A stretch of DNA of 37,345 nt from Rhodanobacteraceae bacterium (GTDB lineage: Bacteria > Pseudomonadota > Gammaproteobacteria > Xanthomonadales > Rhodanobacteraceae), in NCBI GenBank assembly GCA_016790075.1, contig JAEUPP010000042.1, forward strand, positions 1 through 37,345. Direction: 5' to 3'. The notes beneath the pieces were generated by a model. The model was not told where the DNA came from, searched no databases, and saw only the letters and a program-made list of their open reading frames with translations. A program made the translations under genes and the position numbers. Of the stretch, positions 1 through 12,634 are shown in pieces. The first letter of the stretch is position 1. Each line of letters begins with the position of its first letter.

Positions 1-821
1 GGATTGCCCTTCTCGGCGAGTGCTTTGCGGTAGCGATCCATGCCTACGCGGTGATGAGCAATCATGTACACCTGGTGCTGGAGATCGATCCACGGGCGCC
101 ACAGCACTGGTGTGACGACGACGTCGCCCGGCGCTGGGTGCAGCTATTCCCGCCGCGCGAAGCCACAGAGTCTGCGATTCAAGCGAAATGCCAGTCAGTG
201 CTGAATGATCCGGTTCGTCTTGCCGTGATCCGTCAGCGCCTTGGCGATTTGTCCTGGTTGATGAAGTGCTTGGCAGAACCCATTGCCCGCCGCGCAAATG
301 CAGAAGACTTCTGCAAGGGGCGCTTCTGGGAAGGTCGTTTCAAGTCGCAGGTTCTGAAGGATGAAAAGGCGCTGCTTGCCGCCATGACCTATGTGGACTT
401 GAACCCGGTTCGCGCGGGCATGACAGACCCGATGGAAGATCAGCAGCACACCAGTGTGCACGAGCGAATCCGCGAAACCCGTGATCGCCCCCAGTTACTG
501 GCCTGTGCGATGCAGCCTTGGGTTACGACGATCACGCCGACTTTGCCGGGCATCCGATTGCGCGACTATCTCGAACTTGTGGAATGGACCGGTAGGCAGT
601 TGCGGGATGACAAGCACGGGATCATTTCGACGGAGGCGCCGCCAATCGTTCAGCGAATCGAGAAGAACAACCGTCGTTGGCCGGTGCGCGTCAAGGCCAT
701 AGGCTCGCGTTACTGGCGCGTCGTGGGCGATACACAAGATCTGATTGATACGGCCAAAGAACTGGGTCAACGATGGCTGCGTGGTATTGGCTTCACAAGG
801 TCATTTGAGAAAATCCGGTGA
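1..821 (+). CDS. RAYT (REP-associated IS200-like transposase), 5'-truncated by window edge
   Basis: Single-stranded DNA transposase-like protein of the Y1/HUH superfamily, in the RAYT group that is domesticated with REP repeats. The reading frame is already open at base 3, where it encodes IALLGECFAVAIHAY, so the true start lies outside the window; the ATG codons near 51 are internal. The HUH metal-binding motif HVH is seen in MSNHVHLVLE, followed by the family blocks ARRWVQLFPP, CKGRFWEGRFKSQ and YVDLNPVRAG. It aligns without gaps to the complete RAYT at 8455-9423, roughly three quarters identical by eye, so the two are old paralogues and not a recent duplication. I cannot place the usual nucleophilic tyrosine on the helix after the HUH motif; the nearest conserved tyrosine is in YVDLNP. 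REP-like motifs lie downstream at 1110, 1853 and 1881. Confidence 0.88.
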   Translation, partial: IALLGECFAVAIHAYAVMSNHVHLVLEIDPRAPQHWCDDDVARRWVQLFPPREATESAIQAKCQSVLNDPVRLAVIRQRLGDLSWLMKCLAEPIARRANAEDFCKGRFWEGRFKSQVLKDEKALLAAMTYVDLNPVRAGMTDPMEDQQHTSVHERIRETRDRPQLLACAMQPWVTTITPTLPGIRLRDYLELVEWTGRQLRDDKHGIISTEAPPIVQRIEKNNRRWPVRVKAIGSRYWRVVGDTQDLIDTAKELGQRWLRGIGFTRSFEKIR

Positions 822-1172
822 TCCGACGTGACGGGATTCTTGAAGCGCGTGAGCGAGGGTCGACCGTGGGCGAAGCCAACTCGCTGCTCCTCAAACTCGA
901 CAGGCTGACCCCGATGCTGCCCACTCCAGGCGACTCGATTGTGCCGGGTTGAGCTCTGTGCGTGTCTTCGCTTGTCTTCTCGCTTGTCCAATGGTCGCAA
1001 AGTTCAAGGATAGCTCCGAGGCGAATTCAAAGCAGTCTCAGCCATGGCCAATCGCTCGAGCGGAGAAGCGAGACTAGCAGGCGAGACTGGTGAGGCTACG
1101 AGACTCAGACTAGGACACCTACAATTCGGATTCTAACGAGGCCAGGTCCACTCGCTGATGTTGCCGCCTCGC
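822..1172. other. Gene-free region with short GAGACT repeats and a REP-like motif
   Basis: No convincing gene. The stretch holds GAGACT three times (starting at 1070, 1083 and 1100) plus a fourth AGACT, leading into CTAGGACACCTACAATT at 1110-1126. That end closely resembles CTAGGACACCCACAAATT at 8295-8312 in the array beside the second RAYT. The layout (short GA-rich repeats running into a GGACACC motif) mirrors the 8103-8312 array. I read it as a decayed REP-like element downstream of the first RAYT. Confidence 0.5.
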
Positions 1173-1733
1173 TTACTTTTCCAGATCTTTGCTGCGCACC
1201 AACGACAACCGCTCTCCGGTCAGGCGTTCCAGTGGCAATGGCCAGGAACCGGCCGCCGCCATGATTTGCACGGCTTCGTCCGGTGTCTTGCCCAGGTACT
1301 TCATGGCATAAGCCGCGTACAAAGTGGCTGCTCGTCCGCCGCTGGCGCAATGCAACAGCACTTTGCCTTCGTTGGTCTGTACTGCCTTGGCAAACGCCGA
1401 GAGCAGCTGGGGGGTCCATGCCGCATTGCCGTTGACGGGATATTGTTCATAGCCAATGCCCTGCTGCGCAATGAGTGCCGGCTCATCGAAGGACAGCGCG
1501 CTCATCTCATCCGGCGTCCGCAAGTTGAAGACGTAGCGAATGTCCCGCGACTTCAGTCCCTGCAGGTCTTCGAGCGTCGGCTGACCGGCAAGCAGGATCT
1601 CGCCCTGCTGGATTGCTTTGGCAAGCGCAGATGGTTGCGGTACAGGGGCGACGACCGCGGACTTCTGCGGCGCAGTGGCGCAGGCTGTCAGCCCCAATAC
1701 GGCGAACATCGTCAAGGCAGGAGGCAAACGCAT
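1173..1733 (-). CDS. DUF442-type phosphatase-like lipoprotein
   Basis: Predicted envelope lipoprotein of 186 residues with a tyrosine-phosphatase-like fold of the DUF442 / beta-lactamase-hydrolase-like family. The N-terminus is a short hydrophobic signal ending in the lipobox LTAC (Cys18 from this start). The mature part has the family block LAGQPTLEDLQGLKSRDIRYVFNLRTPDE and the phosphate-binding loop HCASGGRA, a C-x4-R spacing as in DUF442 proteins rather than the classical C-x5-R. ATG at 1733 is preferred because CGGAG lies 10 bases upstream; a TTG at 1742 is possible but overlaps that site. Substrate unknown: members of this family have been tied to sulfide metabolism and to protein phosphatase activity, and nothing here decides it. 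A run of nine C lies 50 bases upstream. Confidence 0.8.
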   Translation of the reverse strand: MRLPPALTMFAVLGLTACATAPQKSAVVAPVPQPSALAKAIQQGEILLAGQPTLEDLQGLKSRDIRYVFNLRTPDEMSALSFDEPALIAQQGIGYEQYPVNGNAAWTPQLLSAFAKAVQTNEGKVLLHCASGGRAATLYAAYAMKYLGKTPDEAVQIMAAAGSWPLPLERLTGERLSLVRSKDLEK

Positions 1734-1852
1734 CAAAGGCAAACTCCGATCGAGGCCAGACCAGCGAGCTTACATGAAGCTGCCCCCCCCCTCCGGAGAT
1801 CATGAGGGATGAATACGATGGTCTGTTTGCTTCGCGCGCCGATCAGAGGTTG

Positions 1853-1889
1853 GGACACCCACAATGCCGATTCATCTAACTGGGTGTCC
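1853..1889. repeat. REP-like inverted repeat
   Basis: GGACACCCA at 1853-1861 and its exact reverse complement TGGGTGTCC at 1881-1889, separated by 19 bases. The same 8-9 base core recurs throughout the arrays at 5609-6069 and 8103-8312. This is the only place where two cores face each other as a simple hairpin, like a BIME-type pair of REP elements. Confidence 0.7.
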
Positions 1890-1940
1890 TTGTCTGTTCC
1901 CTTGTCTGTTTTCTTGTCTGTTTTCTGTTTTTGTCTGTTT
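1889..1940. repeat. 12-base tandem repeat CTTGTCTGTTTT
   Basis: Three units in register, at 1889-1900 (ending CC), 1901-1912 and 1913-1924, followed by a degenerate fourth and fifth unit to about 1940. It abuts the REP-like inverted repeat on its right side. A related, weaker CTTGTC periodicity appears at about 964-990, downstream of the first RAYT. Confidence 0.75.
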
Positions 1941-2536
1941 GCCAAGCCGCCTGAGGCAGTGCACATCGGAAACCTGTGTAGCGACGATGCGATGTTGGTG
2001 GGGCTGACGAGTTATTGAAGCGTTACCGGCGCGTAACCGGTTCTTACTCCTCAGGCTTCGCGGAACTGGCTACACTTCACCGGTGCCGCGAACTCCATCG
2101 TGGCCTGAGCGAACGCTAGGCCTCACGCGATTCCGGAAGAAGACTGGACCGGGGGTTCGACGTTAATGAACCCGTTTGTATCCCTGCCGACGTCTGTCTG
2201 CGTGATCTCGTATGCTACCGAATTTGGCCTTGTGGCTGCTGTTCCAGCGAATGCAGCCGCGGTTGTTTCCCCGGCGGGCCATGATGGGTCTACCGGTTTT
2301 TCGTCTGGACGCGACGCTGCGCGGCCCGGAGGCGCCGGAATCCTTTCGTGGATTTCCGCCCCGAGCCTTAGCCAGCGACTCTGAGACTGCCGCCTGCCCG
2401 CCAGACTGTCCGAAAAGGGCGTTTGCGTTTCCGGTAGTCAAACCCCAATGCCAGGTAACACCCAGCCACTGATGCCCCGCTATCAATCCAACCGAATCGG
2501 TTATTCCACGGGAGCCCGCCCTGCGGGTATCCTCGC

Positions 2537-3997
2537 ATGAGCAAGTTGTCCGTAGACGGCGTGTACTCCGACGCCGATGCATTGATCACCGAGCGGACCC
2601 GGTCAACACCGTCCATCCTGTGGATCGAGCTCACCTCGCGCTGCCCGTTCGACTGCGTTTTTTGTTCGCGCGCACTGTTGCGCGGCAAGGGTCAGCATCT
2701 CGATTTCGATTTGTATCGCCGCCTCATTGCCGAACTGGATCAGCCCCAGGTCATACGGCTGAATTATTCGGGTGAGTCGTCGCACTATCCGCATCTGGTC
2801 GAAGCGTGTGCGCTGGCTTCCCAGCGCGGCGCCGAGGTGGAGTTGGTCACTGCGTTGGCGGCGTTGCCGGAACACAAGCTGGAGCCGCTGGTGGCCAGCG
2901 GACTTACCCGGCTGACAATTTCGCTGCATACGCTGGATGCCGAACAATTCCAGCAGATCTACCGTTTCTCGTCGCTGGATGCGATGCGGCAACGGATCGA
3001 ACGCGTCGTCGAATTGGCGCCGCAGCGCTGCCCACGGCCGTTGATCGTCGATTTCGCCTTCGTCGCGATGGCGCGCAATCTGTCGCAGTTGCCGGCAGTT
3101 GCGGCGTATGCACGCGACCTAGGCCTGACCCATGTGGCCGTGCATCCGGTGATCCGGCGCGACCCGATCCCCGAACGCTTCGAGGACGAGCTCGACCAAC
3201 AGGGCCGTCTGCGCGACGACTTTGTCGCGGCGTTGCGAACGCGCGTCGACGACTGTCGCCATGACGTCCCCGAAATCACCATTTCCGTATCGACGCCGGA
3301 GCTTGGACCGCGCTTGCCGCTGACCGCGGTGCCGCGGCATCACCCTTGGCCGCTGCTGGGCGCGGCACGATTGCATGATTGCGACCAGGACCCCTGGGAA
3401 ACCGTGCACATTCTGGCCGATGGGCGTGTAGTCACTTGCGAGGTGCGTGACCAGATCGAACTCGGCCGCCTGGACGCCAACACGACGTTGCGCGACATCT
3501 GGAGCGGACCTGCGTATCGGGCATTCCGGCAGCAGTTCGTCATCGCAGCCGACAGCCACTGCCGAGCCTGCCCTTACAAACGCGCGCAGTTGCCACAGCC
3601 ATTGCCATCGCAGATCCGCGCGACCGATGGGGGAGCAGCGGGCCTGTTGTCTGGTTGGCACGCCTGCGATGAAGGCGCCGCCTGGAGCCGCCCGCAAGCT
3701 GTGCTGGCACTGGCGCCCGCGCGTTGGCCGCGCCGCCCGCGTCTACGCGGAAAATTGCCTCCCGCCGCCGATGGCAGCGGCAACCGCCTTACCGTATCGA
3801 TCCAGGGCGCCGAACCGCTCTACGTTCATCAGCAGGGCCGTCAGGCACTTGAGTTCGACATCGTGTTGCCACAGCCAACCGGCCATCGCGGCCCCCTGGT
3901 TTATCGGCTGGAGGTATCGCACCCGTTCCGGCCCAGCGATTCCGATGGTAGCGATGACCGCTTGCTTGGCATCGCCCTGTACACCGCCGGCGCGTGA
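2537..3997 (+). CDS. Radical SAM/SPASM protein with C-terminal beta-rich accessory domain
   Basis: Predicted iron-sulfur radical SAM enzyme, 486 residues. The [4Fe-4S] motif is C-x3-C-x2-C at Cys36, Cys40 and Cys43 (SRCPFDCVFC). SAM-site blocks follow, including a GE-like RLNYSGESSHYP. A SPASM-type auxiliary cluster region spans roughly residues 279-347: HDC, then GRVVTCEVRDQIELGRL, then a terminal CRACPYK. The last 130 residues form a separate domain (GWHACDEGAAWS near its start, SDDRLLGIAL at its end). It resembles the beta-sandwich accessory domain attached to glycosyltransferases in polysaccharide loci. The stop overlaps the GTG start of the next gene, so the two are translationally coupled. 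Substrate unknown; context suggests modification of a glycan, or of a protein that is glycosylated. No strong ribosome-binding site precedes the ATG. Confidence 0.82.
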   Translation: MSKLSVDGVYSDADALITERTRSTPSILWIELTSRCPFDCVFCSRALLRGKGQHLDFDLYRRLIAELDQPQVIRLNYSGESSHYPHLVEACALASQRGAEVELVTALAALPEHKLEPLVASGLTRLTISLHTLDAEQFQQIYRFSSLDAMRQRIERVVELAPQRCPRPLIVDFAFVAMARNLSQLPAVAAYARDLGLTHVAVHPVIRRDPIPERFEDELDQQGRLRDDFVAALRTRVDDCRHDVPEITISVSTPELGPRLPLTAVPRHHPWPLLGAARLHDCDQDPWETVHILADGRVVTCEVRDQIELGRLDANTTLRDIWSGPAYRAFRQQFVIAADSHCRACPYKRAQLPQPLPSQIRATDGGAAGLLSGWHACDEGAAWSRPQAVLALAPARWPRRPRLRGKLPPAADGSGNRLTVSIQGAEPLYVHQQGRQALEFDIVLPQPTGHRGPLVYRLEVSHPFRPSDSDGSDDRLLGIALYTAGA

Positions 3998-5607
3998 GCA
4001 TGGCGACGAGGCGCTGGCGCCAGGCACTGCGCCTGTTGCCGTTGTGGCTTACCCTGCACGCGGCTGATCTGCTGGCGGCCTGCTTGCCACCGTCGCCAGT
4101 CCGCAGCCGGCGAATGGCACGCTGGAAGCCGGGTCTGGCGATACTGATTCCCGAATCGGGCACCCCCGGCATTCTCGCGGACACCCTGGCAGCGTTGCGG
4201 GTGGCGGCGAACGCAGTAAGCGAGCCGGTGCGCATCCACGTACTCGTGAATGGCGCGCCACGCCGTGACTACCACGAGCTGATGCAAACCCATTCCGATG
4301 TGAACTGGCGCTTCGTCGGGCGAGCGCTCGGCTTTCACGGTGCGGTAGAGGCCGGAATGCGCGAGCTGGACGAAGACTGGGTCTACTTGCTCAATAGCGA
4401 CATGCGTCTGCAGCCCGATGCGCTCGCCCAGGTGCTGCCGTTGCGAGACGACGGCATATTTGCGATCGCCAGCCGGATCAAGTTTCAAGACCGCCAGCGT
4501 CGTGCGGAGGAAACCGGACTTACCGGATGGTCGATACACGAGCAGATGCCGCGGCCCTACGACTGCGAACCCGATCCGCTCGATGGCGTCGTCGAACATC
4601 TTTATGCCGGCGGTGGCGCGAGCCTGTTTCGCACTACGGCCTTGCGCCGAGCGTTGCGCAACAGCCGCTGCTACCAGCCGTTTTATCTGGAAGACGTCGA
4701 CTGGGGCGTCAGTGCGTGGCGACAAGGTTTGCGCGTTGTGTTCTGCCCCTCGTCCCTGGCCACCCATCTGCACCGCGCAACGATAAGCCGATTCGCCCCC
4801 GACGAGGTTGAACGGGTCGTGCGCCGCAATCAGTGCTGGCTGGAATCGCGGCAGGCTCTGGCTGGTGCCACACCGAATGCAATCGTTGCCCACGTATGCC
4901 GGCAACCCGCCAGCAGCCAGCGCGAGATGGCTGCATTGCGCCCCCTACCCTCGCTGTTTGCATCGCGTGTGCGCGCAGCTCGCACGCCGCATCTGCCCGC
5001 ACTCGCCGAGGGTTATGTCACGATCCCGGCGCATCTGCCTGGGGCACGACGCGGCCAACGCCCCCGTCTGCTCTGGATCACCCCGTTCGCATTGCTGCCC
5101 ACTATCCACCGCGACGCGCATCGCCGCATGGCGCTGATGACATCCATTTCCGCGCATTTCGAAGTCATCCTGCTGAGCGATGAGGGCGAACACTATCCCG
5201 CCGATAGCTGGCGCGAGCTTTCCTGCTGTCACGCGATACGGCTGATCGGCGGTCGGCCCAAGGAGGATCCGTCCATAGCCGACCCCGTGCTTGCACGGTT
5301 TGCGAGCCACGCGCATACAGGTCTACGCGTGGCGGTCGCTGGTGCACTGGCACACTTCCGCCCCGACATTGTGCATGTCGAGCACCTGGCGGCGGCGGAG
5401 CTGGTTGAGCTGCGAGGCGAACAACCGTGGACGATCGCCGTGCAATTGGCCGCGATGGCGGCGAGTGGGAACGATGCCGCGGATCACCACCAGCGCGCGC
5501 TGCTGTCGCGCTATGACAGCGTGATTGTCGACAGTGGCGACGACCACGACCTGCTCGGCAGTTTGCGCACTCAGACCATTGCCAATGCCGGCAGCGCCGA
5601 CAGGTAA
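3994..5607 (+). CDS. Two-domain glycosyltransferase (GT2 plus truncated GT4-like)
   Basis: Residues about 47-260 form a GT2 fold: LAILIPESG start, LLNSDM as the DxD-like metal/nucleotide site (residues 133-137), and FYLEDVDWGVSAWRQG (from residue 230) as the ED catalytic block, close to rhamnosyltransferase-type GT2 enzymes. From about residue 355 a second domain begins (RLLWITPF), with FEVILLS, PDIVHVEH and YDSVIVDS. These match the N-terminal Rossmann half of GT4 enzymes. The protein ends at TIANAGSADR, just where GT4 proteins normally reach a PNG-type hinge and the donor-binding half, which is missing. The stop is two bases before the left REP-like array (copy starts 5609). GTG at 3994 overlaps the upstream stop (GTGA); ATG at 4000 is an alternative. 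The GT2 domain may still work; the GT4 part is probably inactive. Confidence 0.8.
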   Translation: MSMATRRWRQALRLLPLWLTLHAADLLAACLPPSPVRSRRMARWKPGLAILIPESGTPGILADTLAALRVAANAVSEPVRIHVLVNGAPRRDYHELMQTHSDVNWRFVGRALGFHGAVEAGMRELDEDWVYLLNSDMRLQPDALAQVLPLRDDGIFAIASRIKFQDRQRRAEETGLTGWSIHEQMPRPYDCEPDPLDGVVEHLYAGGGASLFRTTALRRALRNSRCYQPFYLEDVDWGVSAWRQGLRVVFCPSSLATHLHRATISRFAPDEVERVVRRNQCWLESRQALAGATPNAIVAHVCRQPASSQREMAALRPLPSLFASRVRAARTPHLPALAEGYVTIPAHLPGARRGQRPRLLWITPFALLPTIHRDAHRRMALMTSISAHFEVILLSDEGEHYPADSWRELSCCHAIRLIGGRPKEDPSIADPVLARFASHAHTGLRVAVAGALAHFRPDIVHVEHLAAAELVELRGEQPWTIAVQLAAMAASGNDAADHHQRALLSRYDSVIVDSGDDHDLLGSLRTQTIANAGSADR

Positions 5608-5608
5608 C

Positions 5609-5747
5609 GCCCGGCCTCTTCGCAGGCGGTGCAGCCTGATCGCAATCGCTGAAGTCCCCGGGCCCATAGTCCCTTGAGTGCCAACTAGGCGATTTTCGGG
5701 ATACGCGCGGCTCCATGCCGGCTTTCCCATATATTCATGGGTGTCCC
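5609..5747. repeat. 139-base direct repeat, copy 1
   Basis: Starts GCCCGGCCTCTTCGCAGG and ends with the REP-like core CATGGGTGTCCC. It matches copy 2 at 5807-5945 without gaps, with about six mismatches, so period 198. It abuts the stop codon of the truncated glycosyltransferase. Confidence 0.9.
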
Positions 5748-5806
5748 GGGTTCCCCGGGTTCCCGATGTTGTCATGGGTGTCCCAAATTTTGCCCTCCCA
5801 AGTTTT

Positions 5807-5945
5807 GCCCGGCCTCTTCGCAGGCGGAGCAGCCTGATCGCGATCCCTGAAGTCCCCGGGCCCATAGTCCCTTGAGTGCCAATTAGGCGATTTTCGGAAT
5901 ACGCGCGGCTCCATGCCGGCTTTCCCATGTATTCATGGGTGTCCC
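5807..5945. repeat. 139-base direct repeat, copy 2
   Basis: Second copy of the element at 5609-5747, about 96% identical by eye. Between the copies (5748-5806) lie two partial REP-like units: GTTCCCGATGTTGTCATGGGTGTCCC and CAAATTTTGCCCTCCCAAGTTTT. Confidence 0.9.
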
Positions 5946-6069
5946 AGGTTCCCGCTCCATGCCGGCTTTCCCATATATTCATGGGTGTCCCAGGTTCCCG
6001 ATGCCGGCTTTCCCATATATTCATGAGCGTCCCAGGTTCCCGATATGTTCATGGGTGTCCCAGGTTTTG
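5913..6069. repeat. REP-like 42-base tandem array (left)
   Basis: Units of 42 bases beginning ATGCCGGCTTTCCCAT and containing TTCATGGGTGTCCCAGG. Complete copies lie at 5913-5954, 5959-6000 and 6001-6042; a partial one is at 6043-6069, and an earlier copy at 5715-5757 sits inside the first 139-base repeat. Each complete unit carries the small hairpin CCCAT-N6-ATGGG directly next to GTGTCCC. Period, hairpin and a nearby RAYT gene together fit a REP family. The array lies downstream of both the glycosyltransferase (+) and the MFS exporter (-), so it may also act as a transcription terminator. Confidence 0.88.
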
Positions 6070-6112
6070 TTCCAGGTTTTCTGGTTCGATGCGCCCAGAA
6101 TCCCGCAGAAAA

Positions 6113-7483
6113 TTATCCAGCGGGCCGAGAAAATGCGCGCGGCACGCATATATGAGCCAGTGACGCCAGCAGAAACGCCAGGACAAATACGCTGATATAA
6201 GCCAAAAGCGGCGACTGCCCCTGAAGCGACGAAAACAAGACGCCGCCGCCGGCAAGGGCAGCGCTGGTGCACATCGCGGCGGATAGCTGCAGTGCCGAGG
6301 AATACGTGCCCTGTTGTTCTCGAGGCGACAGCGTCAACGTCAGCACACCCAGCATGGGCAAGGACAAACCCGCACCAAGCCCTGAGATCGACCAGCCGAT
6401 CAGGAGCACCCAGTCCGGAAAGAGTTTCATCACGGTCAACCCGGAAACGATGATGCCTGCGCACAGCAATAAACCGCCGTAGCTGAGCCATGCGCGGCGT
6501 CTTGCTTCATCGGTGATGCGCGACTGCAGATGACTGCCGGCGCTCCAGCTCAGCGCTCCGCCAGTCAACGCGAAGCCTGCTGTGCCGATCGACCAGCCAC
6601 GTTCGAGATGCAACCAGAGTGGAACGAATGCTTCGCAAAGGAAAAATGCGGATGCGTAAAGCCCCCGTAGCGCAATCACAGTGGGCAATCCTGGTGCCAG
6701 ACGCAGTGTACCGATCGGCAGCAGCCGGTCTGCTGAGGTCAGCAGGACAGCCAGCGTAATGACTACCGTCAAGTGTGCCCAGCTCCCGGCAATACCGCTC
6801 ACTGAAAGCACCACACAACTGCTTGCAGCAAGCAAAGCCCAGATCAGGATCGATTCCGGCTTCCGCGCTTTGCGCTCTGCTGGATCCTCGCTGGCGCGAT
6901 GCAGCGACGGCAGAATCAGTGCCGCCGCTGGCAGCAACAGCAAGAATGTCCCGAGGAACAACCAGCGCCAGCCAAGCACCTCTACAACATAGCCGGATAT
7001 CGCGGGGCCTATCAGTGCCGGTACGACCCAGGCCGAGGAAAACATGGCGAACAGGCGCGGCAGCAAGGCCGATTGCAGGGCTCGCGCAGCAGCAACGTAG
7101 AGCGCAACGCCGAGTGCGCCGATGCCAAGGCCCTGGACAATGCGCCCGAAGATAAGTACGTGCATCGACTTGGCCAATCCGGCCAACAACAAACCTGCTG
7201 CAAACAACAGCAAGCCGCCCGCCATCGAAGGGAACGGGCCGTTGCGATCACAGTCGAGGCCAGACCACACCATTGCCAGCAACGAACCGGCCATCGTACT
7301 GGCGAATGCAAGCGCATACAGGTTCATGCCATCCAAGGATTTGGCAACCGCCGGCATGCCGGCGGCAACGCCCATCGCCTCGAACGCCATCATGAAGCAC
7401 AGTCCGATCGAGCCGATCGTAAGGTTTCTCCATCTGGGCGAAAAAAGTGATGTGGCGGATGGTGAGTCGACTGCGGTGCTCAT
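6113..7483 (-). CDS. MFS exporter, DHA2-like, divergent from soxR
   Basis: Integral membrane proton-coupled exporter of the major facilitator superfamily, 456 residues with about 14 hydrophobic segments by eye, as in the DHA2 (EmrB/QacA) group. GRIVQGLGIGAL in segment 4 matches family motif B, and GPAISGYVVEVLGWRWLF in segment 5 matches the drug:H+ antiporter motif C. ATG at 7483 is chosen: AGGA lies 6 bases upstream, while the longer reading from 7519 would start inside the SoxR operator. It is transcribed away from soxR and the operator sits in its promoter, so induction by SoxR in response to redox-cycling compounds is the natural reading. Efflux substrate unknown. The gene ends just before the left REP-like array. 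Confidence 0.88.
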   Translation of the reverse strand: MSTAVDSPSATSLFSPRWRNLTIGSIGLCFMMAFEAMGVAAGMPAVAKSLDGMNLYALAFASTMAGSLLAMVWSGLDCDRNGPFPSMAGGLLLFAAGLLLAGLAKSMHVLIFGRIVQGLGIGALGVALYVAAARALQSALLPRLFAMFSSAWVVPALIGPAISGYVVEVLGWRWLFLGTFLLLLPAAALILPSLHRASEDPAERKARKPESILIWALLAASSCVVLSVSGIAGSWAHLTVVITLAVLLTSADRLLPIGTLRLAPGLPTVIALRGLYASAFFLCEAFVPLWLHLERGWSIGTAGFALTGGALSWSAGSHLQSRITDEARRRAWLSYGGLLLCAGIIVSGLTVMKLFPDWVLLIGWSISGLGAGLSLPMLGVLTLTLSPREQQGTYSSALQLSAAMCTSAALAGGGVLFSSLQGQSPLLAYISVFVLAFLLASLAHICVPRAFSRPAG

Positions 7484-7499
7484 GGCTTGTCCTGGGGGT

Positions 7500-7523
7500 G
7501 AGGTTGCACTAGCGTGCAACCTC
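7500..7523. repeat. Perfect 10-base inverted repeat beside the SoxR operator
   Basis: GAGGTTGCAC (7500-7509) and GTGCAACCTC (7514-7523) with the 4-base loop TAGC. Its right arm overlaps the SoxR operator by five bases. It could be a second operator, or form a stem-loop in the soxR leader upstream of its ribosome-binding site. Confidence 0.75.
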
Positions 7524-7538
7524 AGGTGAACTTGAGGT
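7519..7538. promoter_or_regulatory. SoxR operator in the MFS promoter
   Basis: A 20-base imperfect palindrome ACCTCAGGTGAACTTGAGGT that differs at two positions from the E. coli soxS operator core CCTCAAGTTAACTTGAGG. On the minus strand TTGACC (7541-7536) is placed as a -35 box, and a 19-base spacer, the overlong spacing typical of MerR-family promoters, leads to a weak -10 candidate at 7516-7511. The right half-site TTGAGGT also supplies the GAGGT ribosome-binding site of soxR, six bases before its ATG. Confidence 0.88.
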
Positions 7539-7544
7539 CAAGCG

Positions 7545-8018
7545 ATGTTGAAAGTCAGTTGGCTGAGTGTTGGTGAGACGGCTCGCCGCAGTGGCATCGC
7601 CGTTTCTACTCTGCATTTTTATGAGGCGCAGGGTTTGATATCGTCTGATCGCAGCATCGGCAACCACAGGCGCTATCGTCGCGATGCGCTCCGGCGCATT
7701 GCCTTCATACGTGCTGCACAGGCCATTGGCATCGGTCTTGCCGAGATTGCTAAAGTACTGCAGCAACTGCCCGACCAGCGCACGCCAACCAAAGCTGACT
7801 GGGCCAGACTCTCCTCGCACTGGCGCGCGTCGCTCGATCAACGCATTGCCGATTTGCAAGCGCTGCGTGATGACTTGCAGGGGTGTATCGGCTGCGGCTG
7901 CCTCTCACTGCGTTCGTGCCATCTTTACAATCCAAAGGATTCGCTTGGGCAGCGCGGGCCAGGCCCGCAACGCTTGGGCAAGAGGATGGCTTCAGAACGA
8001 AACTCGCCTTCCCGATAG
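7545..8018 (+). CDS. soxR: Redox-sensing MerR-family regulator SoxR
   Basis: Cytoplasmic [2Fe-2S] transcription activator of 157 residues. The N-terminal MerR winged helix is seen in LSVGETARRSGIAVSTLHFYE and the wing NHRRYRRD. A dimerisation helix follows (residues about 75-112), then the cluster motif C-x2-C-x-C-x5-C at Cys114, Cys117, Cys119 and Cys125 (CIGCGCLSLRSC), which is diagnostic for SoxR. The flanking LYNPKDSLG also matches the family. No soxS-like gene is present; the divergent neighbour is an MFS exporter. That fits the non-enteric arrangement, where SoxR directly controls efflux and redox enzymes and responds to redox-active small molecules. The ATG is set by GAGGT six bases upstream, inside the SoxR operator, so soxR expression may be autoregulated. 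Confidence 0.95.
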   Translation: MLKVSWLSVGETARRSGIAVSTLHFYEAQGLISSDRSIGNHRRYRRDALRRIAFIRAAQAIGIGLAEIAKVLQQLPDQRTPTKADWARLSSHWRASLDQRIADLQALRDDLQGCIGCGCLSLRSCHLYNPKDSLGQRGPGPQRLGKRMASERNSPSR

Positions 8019-8454
8019 AGATGCACGTGGGGCTGCTGCGACAAGAAACCGTACTTGTCCTCGATGGCAGTTGCCGGCGTCGGATGTTGTTTTCCGTGTC
8101 AAGAACCTGGCATGAGAACCGAGAACCTGGGAGCAAGAACCTAGAACCTGGTAGCGGAGAACCTGGAGAACCTAGAACCTGTAGAACCTGGGATAGAACC
8201 TGGGACACCCATCGAGAACCTGGCAGAGAACCTGGGACACCCATGAATATAGGTGGGGAGAACCTGGAACACCCATGAATATGGTAGTAATAACCTAGGA
8301 CACCCACAAATTTCACCCCACTACCCCGCCATTGTTCTACTACGCGGCAATGGGCTTATCCTCGGGTTTATCCTCGCGCGCCAACGAGTGGAAAATTTCA
8401 CTTCGCCCACAGTAGATTCTCGCTTGCGCGCTTCACGTGGCGCTGCCACCGGGC
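8019..8454. other. Gene-free region carrying the right REP-like array
   Basis: No gene is supported between soxR and the second RAYT. The middle is the array at 8103-8312. The remainder (8313-8454) holds only a short repeat, TTATCCTCG at about 8358 and 8371. Confidence 0.6.
8103..8312. repeat. REP-like degenerate array (right), inverted relative to the left array
   Basis: About twelve copies of GAACCTGG or GAACCTAG at irregular spacing (for example starts at 8103, 8123, 8137, 8144, 8159, 8168, 8175, 8184, 8196, 8216, 8228 and 8260). From 8196 on, several are extended to GGGACACCCATGAATAT (8234-8250, 8265-8281). The last form is CTAGGACACCCACAAATT at 8295-8312. This is the reverse complement of the ATATTCATGGGTGTCCCAGGTTC core of the left array, so the two arrays flank the soxR/MFS pair in inverted orientation. 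Confidence 0.87.
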
Positions 8455-9423
8455 TCACCGAACTTTCCCTAGCGACCTCGCAAACCCAATACCACACAGC
8501 CAGCGCTGACCAAGCGCTCTGGCGGTATCGACCAAGTCTTGCGCCTCGCCGACAACACGCCAATAACGCGAACCGATGGCCTTGACCCGCACCGGCCAGC
8601 GAGTCGCGTTCTTCTCTATCTGTTCGACGATCGCCGGCGTTGCTTCTGGAATCACTCCACAGTGGCCATCTCGCAGATGCCTGCCGGTCCATTCCAACAG
8701 CGCCAGATAGTCCTGCAATCGGATTTCCGGGAAAACTGGAGTGATCGTCGTGACTCGGGGTTGCATCACACAGGCCAGCAGCTGCGGGCGATACTTCGCT
8801 TCCTTAACCCGTCCGCAGACGCTGGTGTGTTGTTGATCCTCGATCTGGTGCTCAACGCCCGCCCGAATCGGGTTCAGGTCTACATAGGCCATCGCCGCCA
8901 GCAGTGCCTTTTCATCCTTCAATACCTGCGATTTGAAGCGTCCTTCCCAGAACCGTCCCTTGCAAAGGTCTTCCGCGTTTGCACGGCGGGCAATTGGTTC
9001 GACCAGACACTTCATCAGCCAGGACAGGCTACCCAGACGTTGGCGGATTATGCCGAGGCGAATCGAATCATTGATCAGCGACTGGCATTTCACCTCGAAA
9101 GCCGACGCGGTGCCGTCGCGCGGTGGAAACAGCTGTACCCAGCGTCGTGCAACGTCTTCGTCGCACCAGTGCACGGGAGCTAGCGGATCAACCTCCAGTA
9201 CCAGATGCAAGTGATTGCTCATCACCGCGTAGGCATGGATCGCGACGGCAAAGCACTGGCCTACGAGGGCGATCCTGTCCGTGACCCATTGCTTGCGATG
9301 CTCAAACGACATGCCGGTGTACTTGTCCTCACCACACAGCCACGCGCGGCGCACGCAGCGTTGTACGCAGTGGAATAGGCTACGTTCATTCGAAGAGACC
9401 AAGTGGGAGCGGGGCCGAGCCAT
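8455..9423 (-). CDS. RAYT (REP-associated IS200-like transposase), complete
   Basis: Y1/HUH superfamily transposase-like protein of 322 residues that is probably responsible for the REP-like repeats around it. The N-terminus has the typical FHCVQRCVRRAWLCG block; the HUH motif is HLH in MSNHLHLVLE; CKGRFWEGRFKSQ and YVDLNPIRAG follow. An extra C-terminal region of about 130 residues is shared with the first RAYT and is longer than in the E. coli protein. As in the other copy, no tyrosine is obvious on the helix LSWLMKCLVEPIARRAN, where the nucleophile is expected, so either the nucleophile lies elsewhere or strand cleavage is lost. The ATG has GGA about ten bases upstream. It is convergent with soxR across the right array. 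Confidence 0.9.
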   Translation of the reverse strand: MARPRSHLVSSNERSLFHCVQRCVRRAWLCGEDKYTGMSFEHRKQWVTDRIALVGQCFAVAIHAYAVMSNHLHLVLEVDPLAPVHWCDEDVARRWVQLFPPRDGTASAFEVKCQSLINDSIRLGIIRQRLGSLSWLMKCLVEPIARRANAEDLCKGRFWEGRFKSQVLKDEKALLAAMAYVDLNPIRAGVEHQIEDQQHTSVCGRVKEAKYRPQLLACVMQPRVTTITPVFPEIRLQDYLALLEWTGRHLRDGHCGVIPEATPAIVEQIEKNATRWPVRVKAIGSRYWRVVGEAQDLVDTARALGQRWLCGIGFARSLGKVR

Positions 9424-10069
9424 AGTTGCATTGTCCAGCGACTGCTTTGCAAGCGCATGCGAAAGTGTCCCGGCGGCGCATCGGACTATTCTGATTTATG
9501 CGTGGCCGCGTTTGTGTCAAGCATGGGGAATAGTACGCATGCTCACCTCACCTTTGTTGGCCGCGGCGCCGTGCGTGGCCCATTGCTCGCGCGGCCCATT
9601 GCTCGCCCATTGCCCATCGTCCAACCTGAACTTTGCAGGCAGGGATATGGACAGCTCGGCAGTCGCCGAGTTGTAGGAATTCGTCGTTCTGCCCGGCGAG
9701 TTCGGCCCCGGGCCACGCTTACGGAGCATCCGAGTCTTCTTCCACTGCTGCGGCGATCGACAATTTATATTACATATATGACTGCGAGAGCTGCTGAAAT
9801 TGTCAATACACCCGCCTATGGACGGAGCACGCTATTACTCCGCAGGTGTGCTCCTGCAGAAGGCGGGCGGCATGAAGAGCAGTGGCGATTCCAGGTATTC
9901 GGGATCGGGGCTTGTGCCGAAAACCTACTGTAAGGATCAGGTGCGACAACGATTTCGTTAGCACTCTGCGTTCAGGTTGGTCGGCACGCCGTGGTTAGTT
10001 CCCGGTATTGCCGATCCTATGCATTCATTTCGGGCCGCAACTCTTCGGCGGCTCCCGCAGGGGGAACTC
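9424..10069. other. Gene-free region with AT-rich island and nested stem-loop
   Basis: About 650 bases without a supported gene. It has a 16-base-period direct repeat of GGCCCATTGCTCGC (9577-9590, 9593-9606), an AT-rich stretch around 9755-9780 that may carry the promoter for the downstream lipoprotein gene, and a nested stem-loop at 9811-9867. Confidence 0.5.
9811..9867. other. Nested stem-loop with symmetric internal loop
   Basis: Outer stem CCCGCCT (9811-9817) with AGGCGGG (9861-9867), inner stem GGAGCAC (9824-9830) with GTGCTCC (9848-9854), both perfect 7-base pairs, separated by a 6x6 internal loop. The apical loop is 17 bases. It lies about 200 bases before the lipoprotein start. It could be part of a structured leader RNA or a palindromic repeat. 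Confidence 0.6.
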
Positions 10070-12634
10070 ATGCCGTTAACCTACAAATCTATTGCGTGGC
10101 CGTTGCTGGCCTGCGCCGTTGTTGCCGCCTGCAGCACGACGCCGACACTGCGGCAAAGGCAGGCGGGACCTGCCGGGCGGGAGGCACCAGCCTCTCCCGC
10201 GATAGCAATGCCGGTCCCAGCGGGGCCGTTCGTAGTCGATATGTCCCAGTTGGCTCAAACTGAGGCACTGAAGCCACGCACCGTGTCCAGCAAGGTGCCG
10301 ATGCAGAAGGACCAACCTTCTGACGACGAATCGATCTACACCAAGAAGCAGATCAGCGCTTTTCTGGAGCGCGCCCGCAACATGCCTGTCCAGGCCGGAA
10401 TCGACTACAAACAGGCTATTCCGCAAGAGCCCGCGGGCGCTGGGCAGACCTTTAACGTGCTCAAGTCCTTTGAGTCCGTCGACGCTACGCGCTGCTGCAC
10501 GGACTACGGCGATATTCTGGTGCCGACGGATTCACACATGATCGTCGGCCAGAGTCACATCGTGGTGGCGGTAAATTCGTCGGTAACGATTTACAGCAAG
10601 ACCGGGCAGATCGTCATTCCGACCGTCAGCGCAGAAGCGTTCTACCGTGTGACCGATTACTGTGAGGGGCCATTCGATCCCAGTGGTGACTACGACGAGG
10701 ATGCGGACCGTTATGTGCTGACCTACGTCGGCAAGGACTATGGTCGCTACTGCATAGCAGTCAGCCAGACCGGCGACCCGACGGGCCGCTGGAATCTGTA
10801 CGCCATCGATCCGCGTGTCCCCGGTACGCCGATGGAGAATTTTGACTACCAGCACACTGCAATCACCTCAACGCATCTGGTCGTCGGTGCCAACATCTTC
10901 AATCGCGGGGCCGGTTTCAAGACAGCGCGGGTATACGCTCTGAACAAGCAGCGCGCCTATGACGGACTGTTGCTGACGCCGCCGGCGACCAGGGATCTGC
11001 CAGGGGCGACGCCCTGGCCAGCATCTAACCACGTGCCGCTGCCCGCCGCAGGCGCCTATTTTGTCGCGGAGAAACCCGGAGGAGAGGGCAACGTCTATAC
11101 GCTCTGGCGCTGGAGCAACCCTTCCGATGCAAACACCATGCAGGCGCTGGGTGACATCAACCTGCGTGGTGCGGGAGCGGCAGCGGAGTTTCCGCTGCGC
11201 CCTTCCCAGTTAGGCACGGACTACCAGCTTGATAGTGGCGATTTCCGGCCACTGGATGTGGAATGGCGCAACGGCCGAGTCTGGATGTTGCACTCGCTCT
11301 CTTGCAATCCGCCGGGCGGAGAACCACAAACGTGCTTGCGCTGGGCCGAGGTCAATCCCGCAGGTCCCGCAGTGGTGCAGTCCGGCACACTGGCGATAGC
11401 CGGACGCTCAATTCTGTACGGCAATCTGGCGGTGAACACGCATAACGACATGGCCGTTGGCTTTGGTGTGAGTGGCCCTGGCTACTGGCCCAGCCAGATG
11501 GTCGCAGGACGTCTTGCCGGCGATGCCCCTGGAACCTTGCGCAGCCCGGTCGTGATTCGCGCGGGCGACCTTCCCTACCGCAGTTTCGAGAATTCGCCGG
11601 TGGTGCGCTGGGGTGACTACTCGGCAGCTGTCCCGGATCCGGACGGCAATACGATCTGGTACGTCGGCCAGTACTCAAAGGGCGGGATGCCGGCGCCCTA
11701 TGACTACGCCAGCAAGAAAGGCAACTGGGGAACACATGTGGTTCAGGTGGGCTTTGGCGCTCCTGACAAATTGTTCAGTGACAATTTTGGCCGTGATCCG
11801 GCCTCGATGGCCGTACATACCCTGATCAATCAGGAGGAAGCAGATACAGGGCCAGGCGCTACCGTACTGCAGTTTGACGAATTCCGTGTGCGCTATGTCG
11901 TGCGCAATACCGGCAGGCAGTCGCTGAGCGGCATCAATGTCGTCGACACGACACTCGGCGCCGCGGTTTGTCAGGGCACGGGAGCGCTGGCACCGGGCGA
12001 GTCGCGCGTCTGCTCGTCCGCGATACAGACCTCAGGCTCTGCCGGCGCCACCTATACCGCAAACTACACCGCAGTCGCCGACGATGGCACCGTGCTGCAG
12101 GCAAGCAACTCAGCAATCCTGCAGCCAGGGTTCAACCCGGTGCCGGGTATCCGCTGCACGCAGGTTGGTGGTATCGGATGCCCGCAGCCCCTGGCCGATG
12201 CCCAAGGTGAGTGCGCGGTGGGCGGGTCGGGTGAGCGTTCGGTCACCTCGACGATGAGTGTCAGCAGTTGCGCCAACATCACCAAGGCGCGGGTCGGTCT
12301 CAATATCAACCACACCTACGTCGGGGACATGGTTATCACATTGCGTGGCCCTACCGGTGTTGAGCGGCGTCTGTTTTTTGCACCGCGAGACGGCAACAAC
12401 AACTGCGAGCAGGACAACGTCCGCATGGTGCTCGACGATGCAGCGGCGACTCTGGTCGATTCGGGTTGTGCCGAAGCCTCACCATCGTTCCTGGGCAACT
12501 ACCGGCCGAGCCAGCCACTCTCCGCATTCAACGGCCTCAGTGGCAACGGTACCTGGACCTTGACCATTACCGACGTATGCCCGAACGACACAGGGTCACT
12601 CAACAACTGGTCGTTGGACCTTACCTGCAACTGA
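10070..12634 (+). CDS. Large predicted lipoprotein with C-terminal P domain
   Basis: Predicted lipoprotein of 854 residues. The signal peptide ends in lipobox VAAC (Cys21). ATG at 10070 is chosen because AGGGGGAA lies just upstream and the lipobox then falls at the usual distance; an upstream ATG at 9977 would add 31 non-signal-like residues. Residues about 120-560 form an unrecognised region with cysteine pairs and an acidic, possibly calcium-binding patch (DPSGDYDEDADRY). Residues about 600-690 look like an Ig-like/DUF11-type repeat (RYVVRNTGRQSLSGINVVD). The last 130 residues are a proprotein-convertase P/Homo B domain (HTYVGDMVITLRGPTG, LSGNGTWTLTITD, LNNWSLDL). P domains usually follow subtilisin-type protease domains, but I see no catalytic Asp-His-Ser motifs here. 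Function unknown; probably cell surface or periplasmic. Confidence 0.8.
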   Translation: MPLTYKSIAWPLLACAVVAACSTTPTLRQRQAGPAGREAPASPAIAMPVPAGPFVVDMSQLAQTEALKPRTVSSKVPMQKDQPSDDESIYTKKQISAFLERARNMPVQAGIDYKQAIPQEPAGAGQTFNVLKSFESVDATRCCTDYGDILVPTDSHMIVGQSHIVVAVNSSVTIYSKTGQIVIPTVSAEAFYRVTDYCEGPFDPSGDYDEDADRYVLTYVGKDYGRYCIAVSQTGDPTGRWNLYAIDPRVPGTPMENFDYQHTAITSTHLVVGANIFNRGAGFKTARVYALNKQRAYDGLLLTPPATRDLPGATPWPASNHVPLPAAGAYFVAEKPGGEGNVYTLWRWSNPSDANTMQALGDINLRGAGAAAEFPLRPSQLGTDYQLDSGDFRPLDVEWRNGRVWMLHSLSCNPPGGEPQTCLRWAEVNPAGPAVVQSGTLAIAGRSILYGNLAVNTHNDMAVGFGVSGPGYWPSQMVAGRLAGDAPGTLRSPVVIRAGDLPYRSFENSPVVRWGDYSAAVPDPDGNTIWYVGQYSKGGMPAPYDYASKKGNWGTHVVQVGFGAPDKLFSDNFGRDPASMAVHTLINQEEADTGPGATVLQFDEFRVRYVVRNTGRQSLSGINVVDTTLGAAVCQGTGALAPGESRVCSSAIQTSGSAGATYTANYTAVADDGTVLQASNSAILQPGFNPVPGIRCTQVGGIGCPQPLADAQGECAVGGSGERSVTSTMSVSSCANITKARVGLNINHTYVGDMVITLRGPTGVERRLFFAPRDGNNNCEQDNVRMVLDDAAATLVDSGCAEASPSFLGNYRPSQPLSAFNGLSGNGTWTLTITDVCPNDTGSLNNWSLDLTCN

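Follow-up and report, generated by a model that had tools for sequence, protein, structure and literature searches.

Classical RAYTs (groups 2 and 3), the tyrosine transposases associated with repetitive extragenic palindromic (REP) sequences, are HUH-Y1 enzymes encoded between two inverted end repeats, and their motif, read on one strand, also occurs in gene-less doublets, as known from REPtrons, bacterial interspersed mosaic elements (BIMEs) and REP doublets forming hairpins (REPINs). For a multi-copy RAYT subclass, TnpA_Y1 subclass 2.3, a 2018 study (PMC6006769) reports neither a REP-like sequence nor flanking secondary structure; subclass 2.1 likewise has no REPs known from that study. Here, we describe a stretch of DNA from a Rhodanobacteraceae bacterium (the window, bases 1-37345 of contig C61 in a draft genome of 5.62 Mb and 83 contigs), which fits two copies of a multi-copy element of this subclass, with the genes RAYT-A and RAYT-B. 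We find that hairpin-free inverted ends, together with repeat arrays anchored at one fixed edge, are a real and recurrent feature of this known subclass.

As far as the row and text for subclass 2.3 in PMC6006769 go, the elements resemble it in protein length, in the NHxH, WE, YVDLNP and TS motifs, in HUH-Y spacing, in having several diverged copies per genome and in occurring mostly in Gammaproteobacteria, and differ from that account in the inverted linear ends and anchored arrays found here. With the classical RAYT/REP systems they share the enzyme class, a gene bounded by two inverted end repeats, and gene-less doublets with a motif read on one strand. In contrast to those systems, we found no GTAG foot or conserved palindrome, the gene is multi-copy, the array units vary in length from one fixed edge, and no high-copy dispersed family was observed, a longer form of the motif being present in 7 copies in the own genome. 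The IS200/IS605 family (IS608, ISDra2) is alike in its related fold, seen as weaker Foldseek matches, and, by family, in HUH chemistry. IS608-type ends are reportedly cut on one strand beside subterminal hairpins (in part PMC8266576), whereas the ends described here are inverted and showed no conserved hairpin. Among the papers listed in literature searches, no title or abstract opening describes the motif or anchored arrays for these RAYTs; an earlier description is possible.

The two genes of the window are the following.
Positions 1 to 821, forward strand: RAYT-A, a gene fitting TnpA_Y1 subclass 2.3, 5' part missing.
Positions 8455 to 9423, reverse strand: RAYT-B, 322 amino acids, with the HUH residues H71/H73, Y180 and N184.

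RAYT-A lacks its 5' part because the window begins at base 1 of contig C61. The genes are convergent and 75% identical across residues 51-322, just as an earlier note on this DNA, made from its letters alone, had described them (two related genes facing each other, about three quarters identical). Assignment to subclass 2.3 was made by motifs, length and HUH-Y spacing against the row and text in PMC6006769. Both the length of about 325 amino acids and the HUH-Y distance of near 110 agree with it: RAYT-B carries W159 E160, Y180 VDLNP and T200 S201, and 107 residues separate H73 from Y180. The RAYT copies of the own genome read NH(L or V)H, the letter between both histidines differing from the Y in the published table. 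An alignment of 37 proteins showed H71, H73, W159, Y180, N184 and P185 to be invariant and E160, T200 and S201 nearly so; by family motif, Y180 is the predicted catalytic tyrosine. An AlphaFold2 model of RAYT-B (predicted local distance difference test score, pLDDT, 88.6; predicted template modelling score, pTM, 0.90) had a single match among PDB structures at E ≤ 0.001, the E. coli TnpAREP-REP complex 4er8 (E 6.9e-4; TM-score 0.58 by target, 0.32 by query), so that the predicted fold is that of a RAYT/TnpAREP HUH-Y1 enzyme. Sequence libraries gave weak results: NCBIfam NF047646 (REP_Tyr_transpos) matched both proteins below its cut-off of 80 (RAYT-A with E 1.4e-10 and 41.3 bits), Pfam Y1_Tnp matched RAYT-A only below cut-off, and no match was obtained for RAYT-B in Pfam or PHROGs or for the RAYT protein in a sequence search of the PDB.

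In the own genome, 29 RAYT matches were found at E ≤ 0.001, of which 13, including RAYT-B, are long; the other 12 long copies show 68-85% identity and thus are diverged copies as in subclass 2.3. RAYT copies stand at many contig ends (window position 1; C63, C23, C8, C9, C12, C13, C1, C81, C40, C3, C6 and C51), and therefore the copy number in the draft genome is uncertain and arrays may have been collapsed. One locus, L031 (C57:72155-72421), is a decayed RAYT fragment with two stops that adjoins the intact copy L007 and still has an anchored array of AACACTCAAG units behind it.

In order to characterise the ends, we examined 79 loci of named genomes, which came from the best 80 of 569 confirmed stretches, and added 27 from the own genome. 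In the 400-nt flanks of the named loci, the linear motif GACA[CT][CTG]CA (GACACCCA) reads toward the gene in 63/75 upstream and 49/73 downstream flanks and away from it in 2/75 and 5/73, respectively; at 1-1.4 kb and 2-2.4 kb from the gene it occurs in 2 to 6 of 60-72 flanks. In most named loci with both flanks long enough, two inverted cognate repeats flank the gene, as in a REPtron. The distance from the start of the left core to the protein match has a median of 84 nt, and the right core lies 158-254 nt past the match in the middle half of flanks. Logos of the core-bearing flanks (77/88 left and 61/73 right, positions -25 to +34) showed, outside the core fixed by the search, G at -1, A at -7/-6 and C or A at -4, and no conserved GTAG/GTGG foot. 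The own genome has GCCAC in 12/13 left ends and GACAC in 12/13 right ends, where the choice of end favoured GACA wherever both forms were present. Folding of 11 left and 7 right own-genome ends with RNAalifold (RNA energies) gave 8 and 6 pairs without compensatory change, i.e. no conserved REP hairpin; a TGGG-ACA-CCCA pairing is possible in some copies, the outer half of the stem being variable. Since the own-genome ends have no covarying hairpin, we do not regard these RAYT-associated repeats as REPs.

Beyond the core, each end carries a short tag of 8-9 nt. Comparison of related ends at different loci (38 pairs with at least 70% identity inside the end) revealed an identity of 0.18-0.39 at -25 to -9, 0.61-0.89 at -8 to -4 and 0.50-0.76 at -3 to -1, placing the boundary of element homology. 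The idea that tags are merely captured target DNA is weakened, as related elements partly retain -8 to -1. At L198, on a megaplasmid of Pseudoalteromonas sp. NC201, and at L197 in P. piscicida, the RAYT genes are 94% identical and the left flanks differ; by eye, the left end of L198 is without the tag and the first core bases, and about 200 nt are duplicated on the right side of this locus.

The arrays were assessed by following exact matches outward and inward from every pair of GACAC cores in a flank (489 pairs; 99 flanks with at least two cores; 213 flanks overall). Outward matches mostly ended within 0-4 nt; 171/489 pairs reached at least 5 nt, and 136/171 of these stopped at 8-11 nt (135/168 without the gene-less array of the window, which was counted as one extra flank; L007_R and L031_R are one array counted twice). 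Inward matches, in contrast, stopped anywhere from 0 to 71 nt. Pairs with the same anchor were present in 44 of the 213 flanks and were concentrated close to the gene, with 29/138 flanks at less than 1 kb, 4/132 at 1-2 kb and 1/123 at 2-3 kb. When all 1024 5-mers were used as seed, GACAC had the highest flank count (43), with 80% of long outward extents in one 4-nt window compared to 48% in its best inward window. Overlapping 5-mers moved the outward peak by one base, as expected, and seeds covering an ordinary 8-nt tandem (L120) gave no edge peak. A boundary test seeded with the most frequent 8-mer was dropped in favour of the GACAC-based test, since the choice of an 8-mer seed by itself favours a sharp outer edge.

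For a closer look at units, 26 arrays were listed, 24 of which entered the junction and unit-length tests; they were chosen by hand and their anchors placed by eye. Units measured 7 to 412 nt (median 18), the longest (L129) containing unrelated sequence, and their last base was A in 40, G in 35, C in 35 and T in 20 of 130 non-independent junctions. From the sequences, the array edge appears to lie at, or within 1-2 nt of, the element homology boundary. The only change observed between strains concerns two strains of Pseudoalteromonas shioyasakiensis, in which the left interval of one locus is 385 nt and 212 nt long (a 173-nt difference); the longer strain has a duplicated block that bears the motif, with a fixed edge nearer 14 nt by eye.

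Across 147 genomes of the family, the repeats track RAYT. A RAYT at E ≤ 1e-20 was found in 14/147 genomes (at most 15 candidates per genome were scored, making copy counts lower bounds), and GGACACCCAYNAWT occurred in 13/14 of these (83 copies) versus 12/133 of the others (14 copies); the Fisher p of 4.8e-11 is optimistic because the family genomes are related. The reversed GGACACCCAYNAWT pattern occurred 3 times in the 147 genomes. For 34/83 copies, a listed RAYT match was no more than 5 kb away, compared to about 1 expected; with the remaining 49/83, motifs and arrays occur far from a RAYT gene too. The proposal of the earlier note that this RAYT group maintains a REP family thus stands with regard to the association, but not with regard to REP hairpins. 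Neither of the outcomes it had named as speaking against itself, repeats only at this locus or repeats widespread in RAYT-free genomes, was seen.

Within the window, the repeats are arranged as follows.
Positions 957 to 989, reverse strand: right end of RAYT-A, core TGCGTGTC (959-966) with a two-copy anchored mini-array, tag ACAAGCGA; end type as in paralog L011.
Positions 1069 to 1132, forward strand: solitary end, core GACACCTA at 1114-1121, with GAGACT(A/G)G repeats before the core (by eye).
Positions 1845 to 1941, no single strand: gene-less mini-element, tag and GACACCCA, 19 nt, TGGGTGTC and tag (1845-1897), then a CTTGTCTGTT array.
Positions 5609 to 6078, reverse strand: array without a RAYT of its own, 42- and 46-nt units, a 147-nt block repeated 198 nt apart, common edge GGTTCCC.
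Positions 8103 to 8311, forward strand: right-end array of RAYT-B, units starting with (A)GAACCTG and stopping variably, 9-32 nt if split at GAACCTG; innermost core at 8299-8306.
Positions 9499 to 9516, reverse strand: left end of RAYT-B, core TGCGTGGC (other strand: GCCACGCA) with tag.
Positions 9571 to 9622, reverse strand: second left-type end, a short array of GAGCAATGGGCC units.

The inverted GGACACCC/GGGTGTCC arrays that the earlier note had seen on either side of soxR and the major facilitator superfamily (MFS) gene are there: the arrays at 5609-6069 and 8103-8312 are mutually inverted (e.g. 5974-5997 and 8228-8251, complementary at 24/24 nt), and GACACC/GTGTC cores lie at 959-966, 1114-1121, 1854-1861 and 1881-1888, with five more within 5738-6059 and three within 8204-8306. 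That inventory was accurate as far as it went, but had omitted the right end of RAYT-A, both left-type ends of RAYT-B and the two-ended nature of 1845-1897. The sequence does contain the 42-base tandem (5913-6044, 3.0 copies), as well as the reported 139-base duplication, which measures 147 nt (5609-5755 and 5807-5953, 95% identity). Positions 1845-1897 form a REPIN-like mini-element of 53 nt with two inverted ends, of which two further copies with other flanks exist in the genome (C3 and C14); these are identical for 9 nt past GTGTC and then differ.

The idea that each RAYT copy serves its own repeat class is borne out only in part: the ends and tags are distinct, but the core is common to both. 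The RAYT-A end is GACACGCACAGAGCT with tag ACAAGCGAA, nearly identical in L011; the RAYT-B end is GACACCCACAAATTTCAC with tag ATAACCTAG (AGAACCTGG in outer units), by eye like those of L008, L010 and L027. An exact 15-mer, GAACCTGGGACACCC, has 4 copies genome-wide, all in the window, because the sequence outside the core varies among elements; the local-only repeat that this match suggested proved wrong once core and element-specific tag were treated apart. Allowing up to 1 mismatch, TGGGACACCCA occurs 138 times in the whole genome versus 58 times for the reversed control, i.e. above chance. Five further arrays (L170-L174, on C15, C27, C66, C42 and C25) consist of about 6 to 18 nearly uniform units of 14-19 nt with GACACCCA or GACACGCA; they are distant from every detected RAYT, the one on C27 reaches the contig end, and they look like satellites grown from one end.

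Judging from the arrangement of these sequences, we consider it fairly probable that the arrays are built by an HUH nick at a fixed site, variable extension of the 3'-OH and rejoining. The element ends are inverted copies of a linear unit, the 8-9-nt tag followed by GACACCCA and YAA, whose motif strand points at the gene from both sides. The enzyme would recognise the GACACCCA strand and nick it about 9 nt 5' of GACAC; one nick rule would cover both sides because the ends are inverted. HUH chemistry, as described in PMC8266576, places the 3'-OH 5' of the cut, and the enzyme remains bound 3' of it; here, after the nick, the outer flank would end in a 3'-OH and the tag would carry a 5'-phosphotyrosine. 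The nick may be resealed or used for movement, and sometimes the 3'-OH would first be extended, across the tag and into the end for a variable distance, before being rejoined to the tag. With every event of this kind, one unit would be added whose start is the nick and whose stop is free, and lopsided arrays would result on either side. On the GACAC strand, the 5' edge is fixed and the 3' edge free, which is the polarity predicted by an HUH nick plus extension; the opposite asymmetry would be expected if the other strand were cut. The 42-nt and 147-nt units of the window would be longer products of the same process. The separate class of unusually long units proposed earlier is not needed, as units ranging in length from 7 nt to over 100 nt have one fixed edge and different stops.

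Several observations weigh against this account. Outside the 8-11 nt interval lie 35/171 pairs (17 at 5-7, 13 at 12-13 and 5 at 15-35 nt), the edge of two Pseudoalteromonas loci is at about 14-15 by eye, and position -9 is constant within arrays but not inherited among loci, so that the nick may lie 1-2 nt away from the element boundary; moreover, 30 of the 38 boundary pairs come from the own genome and are not independent. Among named loci with both flanks long enough, the motif is on both sides in 43/69, on one side in 18 and on neither in 8. Same-anchor pairs are also present on the opposite strand, in 5/138 flanks at less than 1 kb, in 1 at 1-2 kb and in 0 at 2-3 kb. Some copies of the motif lie outside RAYT carriers: the 133 RAYT-negative genomes have 14 GGACACCCAYNAWT copies versus 2 control matches. 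Finally, the uniform gene-less arrays L170-L174 could also be produced by slippage. Ordinary minisatellite growth by slippage or unequal recombination near the ends, the RAYT having merely carried the sequence there, would suit these arrays, and tandem repeats are common everywhere. Yet slippage gives no reason for one fixed and one many-valued edge, the ordinary tandem of L120 has no edge peak, same-anchor pairs cluster in the proximal flanks, and array edges coincide with the homology boundary to within 1-2 nt; we therefore regard this explanation as very unlikely.

The unit ends themselves bear on the part that the enzyme plays. Among 101 distinct units of up to 60 nt from the 24 hand-chosen arrays, 28 match the innermost copy as exact prefixes, 44 end in 1-7 unmatched nt and 29 in a longer unmatched tail, in a count that stops at the first mismatch and mixes filler with later mutation; unit ends match the last two bases of the outer flank at 20/130 junctions versus 8.5% expected. 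Because of the unmatched tails, host repair may take part. The enzyme might even make the fixed cut only, the duplications arising from host repair (fork run-off, template switching or microhomology joining), in which neighbouring DNA is copied and filler added. The slight 2-nt microhomology excess and units of at least 100 nt are in line with this, but the fixed edge is one-sided, whereas no preference for one side would be expected from the repair of a two-ended break, and the 28 exact prefixes carry no extra base; on balance, we think it somewhat unlikely. Alternatively, the RAYT might excise single-stranded end fragments of varied length and reinsert them at one site, in a REP-like transposition homing on its own end. 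This would account for the gene-less two-ended mini-element at three places with different flanks and for arrays at RAYT-free places. However, if the same enzyme cut a second time, a sequence preference would be expected at the free unit edge, where none is clear, and separate insertions thus appear improbable to us. Of these readings, we prefer a nick followed by extension.

The remaining genes of this part of the window, for glycosylation and SoxR/MFS, look like ordinary neighbours. At 2537-5607, a stretch bounded by RAYT-type repeats, a radical SAM/SPASM gene overlaps by 4 nt a glycosyltransferase gene starting at 3994, perhaps a pair for peptide or sugar modification. Rfam (window 1-12000) and tRNA searches gave no matches.

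Taken together, we tentatively propose that subclass 2.3 RAYTs may be nick-primed local duplicators, which would cut about 9 nt upstream of a hairpin-free linear motif and, through cycles of nicking, polymerase extension and rejoining, generate edge-anchored arrays as a lineage-specific tag of their own making. HUH enzymes whose cut site lies at a constant distance from a linear motif could be useful tools. If true, subclass 2.3 would gain a DNA partner, for which motif, strand and cut position are predicted. The lopsided arrays could then be read as a record of many separate cuts at one site, pointing to extension from a nick over cut-and-paste, and this would bear on how RAYTs multiply short repeats.

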